Source: an uncultured Bacilli bacterium (lineage in GTDB: Bacteria > Bacillota_I > Bacilli_A > RF39 > UBA660). From it: a stretch of 36,597 nucleotides of DNA. The stretch covers positions 1-36,597 of the forward strand of contig CALVRT010000095.1 of assembly GCA_944358735.1 (NCBI GenBank), given 5' to 3'. Under the pieces are notes generated by a model. The model was not told the origin of the DNA, did no database searches, and saw only the letters and a list, made by a program, of their open reading frames with translations. Below are positions 2,009-13,451 of the stretch, in pieces (the stretch's first letter is position 1; each line of letters begins with the position of its first letter). Made by a program: the position numbers and the translations under genes.

Positions 2009-2100
2009 TCATTATCATAAATTTTTAGTTTAAAACATAAGCATATTCCAGTATCTCAATACAACACAAACCAATAATACATATTTTTATTCACCTCTTC

Positions 2101-2144
2101 TCTAAAACAAAAATAGAATCCTTCTCTTTAGAGAAAAATTCTAT
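2101..2144 (-). terminator. Intrinsic terminator for the minus-strand membrane-protein operon
   Basis: Read on the minus strand, ATAGAAT + TTCTCT pairs with AGAGAA + ATTCTAT (one 2x2 internal loop, 2-base loop), followed by TTTTTGTTTTAG. It lies about 180 bp beyond the stop of the 257-residue gene. Confidence 0.7.
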
Positions 2145-2323
2145 CTATAACAATTATAACAATTGTTTTTCCTTTGTCAATGATAATTTTTATGTAAATT
2201 GATTAGTAATTTAACTTTAAATTAATCCAATACATTTACTGTACATTTTATCATAGTTTCACCTTATTTTGCTTGATTTTAGGTATGAATAAAATTATAT
2301 ATCATACAAAATCTAAACATCAT

Positions 2324-3097
2324 TTATTCTATTACAACAGTACTTAATAGTTCATATATATATTCATCAGTAAAATAGTCTTTCCCCAAAAATAAAAAGG
2401 CGTATCGCTTATTATCTTTAATCAAATAAGCTGTTTTTGTATTATTTGTATCTTCTAATATATATCCAGTATAATCACCGTTAATTAAAATTACATCCCT
2501 ATTTTCAGTATAAGAACCTAAAAATTCAATTTGCAAGTAATTTATAAGTAAATTTTCTTTCATTTTACTAACACTAGTAAAAATATTGTTTTTCATATTT
2601 TTATTTTCTTCTAATAATTTAATTAATTCAATATCATTAGTTATATTATTTTTCTCTAAAAATGCAATGACTTTTTCTTTTGAAATTTCTTTAGAATCAA
2701 AATTATCTTCTTCATATTTTATATAATCGACAAATGTCTTCTTGAACGGCGATATCCAAAATAACATTTCTCTATTTTGATCTTTTTCATCTTTGAAACT
2801 ATAAATGGCCATATCGGCAGATACATCTGTTTTTTCAAAATTACTAAAATCATTTCTTATTTTTACATTTTTATATGTTAAATATTCATCATTGTTAACT
2901 TTTTTATTAGTAAGCGTTACAGTTTTTTCAATATTAATTAAAGGTTTATCAACGGTATTTATTCTATCAACGTTCCAAGAATGTTCTATATAATAGTAAT
3001 GATCATAATAAAATACCACAAATCTTCTGTAACAAAAAAATGTTAAAACAAGTAAAACTATTAAGGCAGTTATATAAATTATTTTTTTCTTTTTCAT
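2324..3097 (-). CDS. Membrane-anchored hypothetical protein
   Basis: A 257-residue protein with a short basic N-terminus (MKKKK) and one membrane segment (IIYITALIVLLVLTFFCY), then a mixed, charged domain without cysteine pairs that I do not recognise; the bulk is probably extracellular. A GTG nine bases further upstream also opens the frame, but it overlaps the ribosome site AGGAG, which is spaced 8 bases from the ATG, so the ATG is chosen. The gene follows the DUF975-like gene by 18 bp and is probably co-transcribed with it. Confidence 0.75.
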   Translation of the reverse strand: MKKKKIIYITALIVLLVLTFFCYRRFVVFYYDHYYYIEHSWNVDRINTVDKPLINIEKTVTLTNKKVNNDEYLTYKNVKIRNDFSNFEKTDVSADMAIYSFKDEKDQNREMLFWISPFKKTFVDYIKYEEDNFDSKEISKEKVIAFLEKNNITNDIELIKLLEENKNMKNNIFTSVSKMKENLLINYLQIEFLGSYTENRDVILINGDYTGYILEDTNNTKTAYLIKDNKRYAFLFLGKDYFTDEYIYELLSTVVIE

Positions 3098-9879: not shown

Positions 9880-10071
9880 AAAATAGAGGGTGGTCCGGCA
9901 AGTTCTGGTTTTCTTTGTTTCACTTCTTTTTTAAAAATACTTTTATGACAAATGATGGCCTCTCGCGCGTGGCCTTAGGCCACTGCCAAGCAACTACTGT
10001 TGCTTGCCTCCCTCCGGCCTTTATAGTCCTTTTCCCATCTAGTTTTTTTTGGCCGGAGATGCCTCTATTTT
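9880..10071. other. 192-bp GC-rich element bounded by a 20-bp imperfect inverted repeat
   Basis: The ends are AAAATAGAGG-gtgg-TCCGGC (9880-9899) and GCCGGA-gatg-CCTCTATTTT (10052-10071): 16 of 20 positions pair. Inside are perfect hairpins: GTGGCC-TTA-GGCCAC (9969-9983), CAAGCAAC-TACT-GTTGCTTG (9987-10006) and CTCCGGCC/GGCCGGAG (10012-10019 with 10051-10058), the last competing with the outer stem. The GC content is far above that of the neighbourhood. It could be a structured RNA in the 3' part of the surface-protein transcript, or a small non-autonomous mobile element. No clear target-site duplication was seen. Confidence 0.6.
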
Positions 10072-10080
10072 AACCTTTCC

Positions 10081-10157
10081 CCCGCTCTTCCTTGCAAGCA
10101 AACACGAGCGGGTTAGGACGCTGCCAAAGGCAGGTCCTGTGACACGGCCTAAAGGCC
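10081..10157. other. Run of three strong hairpins just after the surface-protein gene
   Basis: CCCGCTC/GAGCGGG (10081-10087 with 10106-10112), AGGAC-g-CTGCC-aaa-GGCAG-GTCCT (10115-10138) and GGCC-TAAA-GGCC (10146-10157). They start about 25 bp beyond the stop codon. Hairpins just downstream of a variable region are a known feature of DGR target genes, but none of these is proof. None has a U-tract, so they are not simple terminators. Confidence 0.55.
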
Positions 10158-10181
10158 TTCCGAACTGTAAGTACTTAGTCA

Positions 10182-12281
10182 TCAAACCCCCAAGGTGTAA
10201 GGATCAGAGCTAGTCCCTGCTCCACCTGTAATTTGGATATTAGAGCTTAGAGTGACAACTGGGCGGACGCCGCTCGAGGCGTGAGCGGTGTAGTTGTTGA
10301 AGTCGCCGCCACTGTTCACCTTCCACACAGAGCGCGAGGAGCTGGCAGAATCCGGCGACATGGTCCACCAATTGTCACTATTAAACATCCAATTGCTATT
10401 TTTACATGGTGCACCACTTTGAAGTCCTTGATAGAAACTTGTACAACTACCATTTGTACTTGCTCTGACATATTCCGTCGCATCTATTAATGCAACCTTT
10501 CCTTTCCATTTCGCTGCTTTTACTTGTTCCATATCTTGACTCATACTTGTATTATTATAATATAACACTCCTACTTTATATACTGCATCTTCTTTTACCA
10601 TACTCCTTGCTGTCTCATTTAGCCCATTATAATACGTTTCATTCAAATACGTACTCATTTCTGATTCTTTACTTGGTAATTGATATTTTGTTCCATTATA
10701 TGTCCTTCCTAATGTCGTTATTGGGCTTAAGTTTGTATCATACAGTGTACTACTACTTCCATAGATATTACATCCACTACTATAATTACAATATTGGCTA
10801 CTATTATACCTTCCATTACTACTTGTATCAAATACTCTATCTAATAGCACTCCATTTCGCATTATTTTGATTGTATTATCACTAGTATTGACACTGATTA
10901 TCCTCCATTGTTCTCCATTGAAGGTAACATAGTTATTTGGATTACTTCCTCTATATGTGTATACATTATCTTCATATAAATCTTCATATAGGCCATCACC
11001 GCTAGTTACTACTCCAGTACTTTCTAATAAATCACTTCCTAATGAACCAACTTCAACCGTATAAGTACTTGTATTAACAGTGTTCGTTCCGTCACTGACT
11101 CTGGCTACTAATATTCCACTTTCTGTAAACTCTACTTTTTGACTTTGGGTCGCTGCTATCCATTCTCCACTATCTTTTTGATATTCGTATGTTAATCCTT
11201 CTCCTTCTGGATAACTTATAGTAACTGTTTTGCCATTATTCGTTTCTACTTCACTAAAGGTTGGCACATTTAAGACACTGGTACTTACTTCTTTATCTTC
11301 ACTTTCTACTTGTAAGTTGTCTCTATTGGTTACTCTTACCTTTATTGTATGACTTGTTCCTTGCGTTAGTCCTGTAAAAGTATAGGTATTACTTCCTTCT
11401 ATATATTCATTATTATCTATTTTATATTCATATTTAACTATTTCTCCATCTTCATCACTAGCACTAGTTACAACAGTTATACTATTAGTTGTACTGCTTG
11501 TACTTACATTATCTATTACTGGTGGAGTCGTATCTATCTTTCTAAATATCGCATACAGTGTTGTATTATTTGCTGGCATTGTATAGCTTTCTAATCCTGT
11601 TACGGCATCTTTATCGGTATTCCACCCCATAAATTCATATCCAGTTTTACTAGCCGTATAACTTAAATTTACATCTGTATTTTCAGCTACATAATTATTT
11701 ATCGCATTACTACTTTCTCCACCATTAGTTGTATAATCATATGTTACATAATATTCATCAGCTGGTAAGGGATTTTCACTATCTTGAGCTACATCGATAC
11801 TGACATCTAAACTTATATCTATATCTCCTGGGATACTGGTTACATTGCTATTAAATTCTACTCTTACTTGTAATTCTTTACTTTGATGTCCTTCAATAAC
11901 GTCTCCTTTAGAAAGACCTGATAAAGTAAAGGTTACATACTCATTTTCTTGATAATAAGAATTTATTTTTTCAATCCGGGCATCGATATCTCCCCTATTT
12001 TCAATCGTTACGGTATATAAAGCATAATCTCCAGGTTTAGAAAGTCCTGTATGAAATGAGGCATATAATCCATTGGTATTATCATAAGTTGGTTCTTCTA
12101 AATCTGTTGCTCCATTAAGTTCTGATTCAATATTCGTTATTCTAACATCCCAGTTACTGGTTATGTTACTAGTACCAGTAATGTTTAACTGACTTGAAAA
12201 AGCAGCATAGCCTATCCCCATTAAGACTAATACCGCACATAGTCCTAATATTATATAATTGTTCTTTCTTCTTTTATTCAT
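10182..12281 (-). CDS. Large secreted protein with a C-type-lectin-like end; candidate DGR target
   Basis: A 699-residue protein. The basic N-terminus and hydrophobic segment (about 8-30), followed by AFSSQLNITGTSNITSNWDV, resemble the TasA/camelysin-type leader. Then come a camelysin-like beta domain (to about 170), an InlB/Listeria-Bacteroides repeat (about 180-250, GYEFMGWNTD), two FN3-like beta domains (about 252-415), and a 270-residue C-terminal domain of the C-type-lectin/FGE kind ending in WWTMSP, GVRPVV and GTSSDPYTL. Codons in residues 638-674 are strongly GC-ending, unlike the rest of the gene. There is no LPxTG motif, so sortase anchoring is not expected. The upstream ATG of the frame (33 bases earlier) has no ribosome site; AAGGTGGGG precedes the chosen ATG. 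Confidence 0.8.
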   Translation of the reverse strand: MNKRRKNNYIILGLCAVLVLMGIGYAAFSSQLNITGTSNITSNWDVRITNIESELNGATDLEEPTYDNTNGLYASFHTGLSKPGDYALYTVTIENRGDIDARIEKINSYYQENEYVTFTLSGLSKGDVIEGHQSKELQVRVEFNSNVTSIPGDIDISLDVSIDVAQDSENPLPADEYYVTYDYTTNGGESSNAINNYVAENTDVNLSYTASKTGYEFMGWNTDKDAVTGLESYTMPANNTTLYAIFRKIDTTPPVIDNVSTSSTTNSITVVTSASDEDGEIVKYEYKIDNNEYIEGSNTYTFTGLTQGTSHTIKVRVTNRDNLQVESEDKEVSTSVLNVPTFSEVETNNGKTVTISYPEGEGLTYEYQKDSGEWIAATQSQKVEFTESGILVARVSDGTNTVNTSTYTVEVGSLGSDLLESTGVVTSGDGLYEDLYEDNVYTYRGSNPNNYVTFNGEQWRIISVNTSDNTIKIMRNGVLLDRVFDTSSNGRYNSSQYCNYSSGCNIYGSSSTLYDTNLSPITTLGRTYNGTKYQLPSKESEMSTYLNETYYNGLNETARSMVKEDAVYKVGVLYYNNTSMSQDMEQVKAAKWKGKVALIDATEYVRASTNGSCTSFYQGLQSGAPCKNSNWMFNSDNWWTMSPDSASSSRSVWKVNSGGDFNNYTAHASSGVRPVVTLSSNIQITGGAGTSSDPYTLGV
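10260..10370 (-). other. Candidate DGR variable region (37 codons)
   Basis: In 37 codons from TGG TGG to CCA, 31 end in G or C and 20 end in C, within an otherwise A/T-ending gene. Long runs have the form NNC (GGC GGC GAC TTC AAC AAC TAC ACC). That is the pattern expected when AAC codons of a template are diversified at their adenines. The region encodes the surface of a lectin-like domain directly before the conserved GVRP. No template copy and no reverse transcriptase is in the window. Confidence 0.5.
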
Positions 12282-12337
12282 AATTTCCCCACCTTTTTTT
12301 ATATTATTAACCATATTTTTGTTTTTATTCTAATTAG

Positions 12338-12461: not shown

Positions 12462-13451
12462 TTATATTTCATCTTCTTCACTAGTTACATCAGCTAAAGT
12501 AACATCTGGTAAATATATTTGTCTTTCTTCACAAATTCTTTTAAATTTTTCTCTAAAAGCCGCGCATTCCTTAACTCTACTATCAGGATAAATACGTTTA
12601 CTATTACGAATAGCCATATAAACATCAATAATATCAACTTCCGTTTTATTTTCAAATAAAGCATTAGAAAAAGCTCCTGATAAAACAGATAAAGACACAT
12701 CTGGATACATAGCTGATAAGCCATAAACCCTTTTAAATTCACTAGTTGCACTAACAATAGATTCCATAAGTAAAGTTGTTAAATAATGATTTGGTTGCAT
12801 TTTAATACCTGTTTTGTATTCAATTTTCGGAATTGTTCCGAGTAATATTTGAACAGTTGCTTCCTCACTAGGTTCAGAAACATCAATTCTATCAAAACGA
12901 CGAAGAAACGCCCTATCACGAACAATATAAGTTTCATATTCAATAGTTGTTGTCGCGCCGATGGCTTTAATATCACCACGGTCTAAAGCTGGTTTTAAAA
13001 TATTAGCTAAATCCATTGGACCATCACTATTACCCCCAATTAAGGTATGCACCTCATCTAAAAACAAAATAGTTTTAGGGGCTTTTTTAAGTTCACTAAC
13101 TAATAAATTAACAACACTTTCTTCTTTACCATTAACTAGCATCGTTCCTTTTAAACTAGATGTATTTATTTTAACAATTCTATAGCCTTTTAAAGCATTA
13201 GGAACAGCATCTCTTTGAATTAAATAAGCAATTCCTTCAACAATCGCAGTTTTACCAATACCAGCCTTACCAGTAAGTAAAGCTGATTTATCAGGCGTTA
13301 GTAAAACAAGCATCGTTCTTTTTATTTCTTCATCCCTTGCGATAGCAGGATTAGTAACATATTCTTTAGCTGTTAAATCATCACAATAATTAACAATAAT
13401 TGGATATTCATTTCTATCAAGGGGTGGCGCTAAATGGATATTATTATTCAT
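12462..13451 (-). CDS. Stand-alone Clp-type AAA+ ATPase
   Basis: A 329-residue protein holding a single AAA+ module like the D1 ring of ClpA/ClpC: Walker A GKAGIGKT (61-68), Walker B ILFLDEVH (128-135), sensor 1 IGATTT, and arginine-finger segment RAFLRRFDRI. It has no second AAA domain, no Clp N-domain and no ClpP-docking loop, so it is not a classical ClpC. It may remodel a specific partner. AGGAGAA precedes the ATG. It follows the thioredoxin lipoprotein gene by 1 base, so they form one operon and may share a task. The true role is unknown. Confidence 0.8.
   Translation of the reverse strand: MNNNIHLAPPLDRNEYPIIVNYCDDLTAKEYVTNPAIARDEEIKRTMLVLLTPDKSALLTGKAGIGKTAIVEGIAYLIQRDAVPNALKGYRIVKINTSSLKGTMLVNGKEESVVNLLVSELKKAPKTILFLDEVHTLIGGNSDGPMDLANILKPALDRGDIKAIGATTTIEYETYIVRDRAFLRRFDRIDVSEPSEEATVQILLGTIPKIEYKTGIKMQPNHYLTTLLMESIVSATSEFKRVYGLSAMYPDVSLSVLSGAFSNALFENKTEVDIIDVYMAIRNSKRIYPDSRVKECAAFREKFKRICEERQIYLPDVTLADVTSEEDEI

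Follow-up and report, generated by a model that had tools for sequence, protein, structure and literature searches.

In an uncultured Bacilli bacterium, a short GC-rich patch in a gene for a putative surface protein is, we are nearly certain, the variable region (VR) of a cellular diversity-generating retroelement (DGR) that would act in trans, with its template elsewhere in the genome. The window (the whole stretch of DNA analysed, 36,597 nucleotides) is contig C95 of a metagenome-assembled genome of 1.39 Mb in 104 contigs, 88% complete. Neither a reverse transcriptase (RT) nor a template is found on C95 when the whole contig is considered, just as a first-pass annotation of the sequence had reported. 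That annotation had proposed a DGR variable region, and its interpretation is borne out by variation restricted to template adenines, by a template and by RT/Avd loci in the same genome.

The target gene encodes 710 amino acids on the minus strand, at positions 10182 to 12314, as read from its ORF, its translation and its Pfam matches (PF09479, PF18998 and PF19789); the true start may be 12281, at a second ATG (MNKRRKNN). Directly upstream, at 12462-13451 on the minus strand, is an AAA ATPase gene with a TniB-like match. The target has an N-terminal hydrophobic segment, a List_Bact/InlB-type repeat, a spacer region that we take, on our own reading, to be Ig-like, and a C-terminal DUF6273 domain containing the VR. 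The DUF6273 match spans 10245 to 10703 on the minus strand (hmmscan, residues 538-690, E 6.1e-8). Published work describes DUF6273 as a C-type-lectin-like domain subject to mutation by DGRs (PMC10743442, PMC11792537): models for gut phages give it a C-type-lectin-like fold in which a surface hairpin carries the VR (PMC10743442), and in Faecalibacterium prophages it is present in DGR targets (PMC11792537). The fold of the target domain is described here as putatively C-type lectin from the DUF6273 HMM match and the phage work (PMC10743442). An AlphaFold model of the lectin domain, built on an alignment of nine sequences, is too poor to use (mean pLDDT 49.5), and a PDB profile search with the domain returns chance-level matches only.

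The genes neighbouring the target are housekeeping genes (CdaA, YbbR and SpoU methylase). A protein search of phage records finds no relative of the target, and the viral contigs contain a single distant one. Because the neighbours are housekeeping genes and phage relatives are nearly absent, we take the window gene to be a cellular DGR target, and a phage origin was rejected on the same grounds.

The patch itself (10260-10370) comprises 37 whole codons with a GC content at third positions (GC3) of 0.838, or 84%. Twenty of them are NNC codons, and the run GGC GGC GAC TTC AAC AAC TAC ACC is confirmed. GC3 is 0.18 in the remaining 674 codons of the gene and reaches a maximum of 0.351 among 8687 stretches of 37 codons taken from the 31 other ORFs of the window. 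The composition given in the first-pass annotation is thus exact in all its numbers and far outside chance, and its placement of the patch at the C-terminal end of a C-type-lectin-like domain, before GVRP, agrees with the DUF6273 match, at whose C-terminal end the patch ends in GVRP. At the corresponding site, a homologue on contig C16 uses ordinary A/T-ending codons. The alternative raised at the outset, that all homologues share the same GC-rich codons, therefore does not hold.

The VR (10259 to 10359, minus strand, 101 bp) aligns without gaps to a sequence on another contig, which we call TR1 (C50:993-1093). TR1 is adenine-rich, with 34 A of 101, and reads SPNSNSNSNNVWNVNSSGNLNNNNANNTNGVRP, against SPDSASSSRSVWKVNSGGDFNNYTAHASSGVRP encoded by the window VR. 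The VR has changed 17 of the 34 adenines and 8 of the 67 other bases (p=5e-5; this and the other p values assume independent columns and ignore sequence relatedness, so that they are guides and not exact probabilities), and every one of the 17 adenines left in it sits on a TR1 adenine. From TR1 to the window VR, AAY codons are rewritten as NNY codons, which explains the long run of NNC; the earlier suggestion that AAC codons had given rise to it is therefore upheld. The template that had been predicted is found in part: an adenine-rich sequence that aligns without gaps does lie on another contig, but it is close to the parent of the VR and not the exact parent.

TR1 also aligns with six other genes (C52:440, C50:25987, C75:413, C36:4402, C10:996 and one on C57), and VRs are present in at least seven genes on scattered contigs. 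Each VR differs from TR1 by 17-22 changes at the 34 adenines and 3-8 at the 67 other positions (Fisher p 5e-5 to 8e-11). Among the seven VRs, 34 of 34 TR1 adenine columns are variable, as compared with 14 of 67 others (p=5.5e-16), and between the window VR and its C52 paralogue, differences occur at 21 of 34 adenine columns and only 1 of 67 others (p=7e-12). The bases found at template adenines are A (44%), T (21%), G (21%) and C (14%). Reading frames are open, and scaffold residues kept, in 13 of 13 VRs.

The comparison between strains that the first-pass annotation had suggested can be made with the nearest relative available, a sister species (genome G007), and its outcome is favourable. 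For 300 bp upstream of the VR, the C52 gene matches its counterpart there (G007:C18) at 98.3% identity. Inside the VR, 15 of the 34 adenine columns differ, and 1 of the 67 others. This shows a much faster turnover of the C52 VR than of its flank since the split between the two species.

Some departures from TR1 are shared. The window and C52 VRs both have GGC for TCG, T, C, T and C (columns 50-52, 59, 73, 76 and 82), and six VRs of the sister species carry much the same non-adenine signature. Since the window VR has eight non-adenine mismatches to TR1, most of them also in C52, we infer a second template, missing from the assemblies of both species, which probably has AAC at columns 50-52, followed by TTC, AAC and GCT; TR1 is a sister template and not the exact parent. 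When a template is inferred from seven VRs with the window left out to avoid circularity, 24 of the 25 mismatches of the window VR fall at inferred A and 1 elsewhere (p=3e-11). The second template was not found in the genome itself, in 43 other genomes of the genus, in phage records, in viral contigs or in other genome contigs; in the genome and its genus, TR1 is the only template found that is related to the window VR.

The DGR-type RT that had been looked for is present in the genome, with Avd, on two other contigs. An RVT_1 search finds three places, on C35, C50 and C15. DGR-type RTs have the motif [LIV]GxxxSQ in place of QGxxxSP. The C35 candidate was rejected as a DGR-type RT: it reads QGGNLSP and is group II intron-like. 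The C50 and C15 sequences read IGSMTSQ and IGGLTSQ (the latter within GLSIGGLTSQ), the DGR form of the motif. The best solved match of the C15 RT is 8ub7, presumably the structure of the BPP-1 DGR RT.

On C50, TR1 is followed by a MutS_I-like ORF (MSL, 1335-1721), Avd (1783-2061) and RT (2030-3029 and beyond). As assembled, the RT frame is broken after LKFDI by a deletion or frameshift, which could be an assembly error. The C15 locus is like C50 in order, with a template, an accessory ORF, Avd and an intact RT of 344 amino acids. The Avd ORFs of C50 and C15 match bAvd in Pfam (E 2.6e-7 and 1.9e-9) and NF033474 in NCBIfam (1.4e-8 and 1e-10), in both cases below the curated cut-offs, as well as phrog_3206, 'Avd protein of DGR' (8.9e-11 and 1.4e-14). 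The match of the C50 ORF to MutS domain I is weak (E 0.00096), with 2.9e-10 for a relative in genome G027; the known DGR accessory gene MSL has a MutS domain I Pfam match (PMC10053308). At the C15-type locus of the sister species the target adjoins, and template and VR differ at 15 of 31 adenines and 5 of 76 other positions.

In the mechanism that we propose, an adenine-rich template RNA would be copied by a DGR RT with Avd, and errors at template adenines would convert AAY codons to NNY. The resulting cDNA would then replace the 3' end of the chromosomal gene, whose DUF6273 (C-type-lectin-like) product would be anchored at the surface, so that up to about 16 presumably exposed residues could change with the reading frame and the SP...VW.V..G...GVRP scaffold intact. 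Retrohoming may be continuing, with the second template as the putative exact parent, and the intact C15 RT could serve the window gene in trans. A wider scheme for the genus, which we offer as speculation and think rather improbable, is that templates and RTs form unlinked pools: template loci with a broken RT, such as C50, would be served by the RT of another locus, such as C15, and the members of one shared, dispersed family of surface lectins would be rewritten from a number of alternative templates, of which some come and go between strains.

Three other explanations of the patch deserve comparison with a DGR acting in trans. The one we take most seriously, while still considering it unlikely, is that the DGR that wrote the patch has since lost or broken its template and RT, and that the patch is now fixed. 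The exact template is indeed missing from the assembly, the RT beside TR1 is frameshifted, and the VR of the remote target SP32 in Treponema denticola matches the template of another strain (PMC4891356). However, a second RT/Avd locus, on C15, is intact, the VRs have all retained their open frames and scaffold residues (13 of 13), and since the split from the sister species the C52 VR has undergone turnover, against a flank that differs by 1.7%. The missing template is weak evidence, because repeats tend to break assemblies, several VRs are no more than about 1 kb from the end of their contig and the genome is 88% complete; its absence is to be expected.

A retroelement would not be needed at all if paralogous lectin genes had exchanged sequence by gene conversion or recombination, or if a GC-rich segment had been acquired horizontally. 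Two features speak for this, the large size of the gene family and the near-identity of some downstream flanks from locus to locus (97% for the one at the C50 end), but conversion would move blocks and not produce independent changes confined to 34 adenine columns. Differences between the paralogues take in nearly every adenine column and hardly any other, and a template and loci for Avd and RT are present in the genome, so that we regard this explanation as very improbable. Selection on codons or composition, or chance, is the least credible of the three, to the point of being negligible: GC3 is 0.84 in the patch, against at most 0.35 in the 8687 other stretches, and the C16 homologue is A/T-ending at the patch site.

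The first-pass annotation had also drawn attention to strong hairpins after the patch. A hairpin-rich segment does lie downstream (9940 to 10181, minus strand; DNA fold z = -3.9), but it is not a general part of the DGR. Copies are found only at C52, where the segment is displaced by about 370 bp, and at the C50 end, and no copy is seen downstream of the VR on C36, C10 or C57. With the segment at 3 of 7 VR loci and displaced at one of them, the hairpins were rejected as a general DGR homing element; a terminator-like repeat is probably the better description. In the Bordetella phage BPP-1 DGR, a hairpin directly follows the VR, whereas no hairpin is conserved across all VRs here. An Rfam search of the window gives no match.

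In other respects the system resembles the BPP-1 DGR (target Mtd), which combines Avd, RT, template and VR, with adenine mutagenesis and a VR that lies at the 3' end of the target gene, whose product has a lectin fold, as it putatively does here. There the target is a single phage tail protein in cis, whereas here there are many targets in trans. A close parallel in arrangement is the DGR of T. denticola, with TvpA and remote targets (PMC4891356): it too is chromosomal and has VR genes, about seven in all, at dispersed sites. Its targets are C-type lectins, as ours putatively are; its templates are of several types, and one remote VR matches a template absent from the strain. That system belongs to a spirochaete and has a core locus with its own target; ours is in a small-genome uncultured Bacilli lineage with DUF6273/InlB-repeat targets, and its assembly lacks the template that would match the window VR. 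The DUF6273 targets of gut phages (tentaclins, PMC10743442; Faecalibacterium prophages, PMC11792537) likewise have the VR at DUF6273, with a proposed C-type-lectin fold. They are receptor-binding or virion proteins with an adjoining cassette, whereas here the target would be a surface protein of the host chromosome, and the template is on another contig.

Remote and multiple DGR targets are thus already known from T. denticola (PMC4891356), and what appears to be new is the lineage and the target architecture, of which we found no description in the literature searched. At least seven surface genes in a 1.4 Mb genome of this uncultured Bacilli lineage would be given over to retroelement-driven hypervariation. 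A codon-composition anomaly in a single gene can point to a DGR target even when the machinery is on other contigs, a kind of remote target that cassette-based DGR finders, looking near the RT, would miss.

Several further observations concern DGR loci across the genus. A frameshifted RT beside a template, MSL and Avd that look intact is recurrent, at L013 2030-3130 (the C50 locus, G000:C50), L093 1075-2213 and L095. The contigs that hold the last two, G007:C22 (L093) and G006:C8 (L095), come from different species bins and encode identical proteins, including the DGR genes and DnaB/L9-like housekeeping genes; one of the bins may hold a misplaced contig. Genome G002 has three identical adenine-rich, template-like sequences of ~100 bp (L026, L041 and L046, on contigs C4, C2 and C1), that is, one template in several copies. 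By our own reading of the translations, the C15 DGR (L016 11176-15743, G000:C15) is near transposase-like and tyrosine recombinase-like ORFs and may belong to a mobile region.

DGR RT genes of related genomes are interrupted, exactly at the conserved GLPIG/NMTSQ motif, by a 3.43-kb element (L098 2994-6420 in G031:C23; L097 3114-6543 in G032:C5). The element carries three tyrosine recombinase genes, has ~90-bp inverted ends and is presumably of a type that we call recombinase-in-trio. The two copies are 99.8% identical and in opposite orientations. An end of the element also abuts a third, more distant RT at the same codon (L126 1-105, G032:C43), and the pattern suggests that the element inserts site-specifically into DGR RTs.
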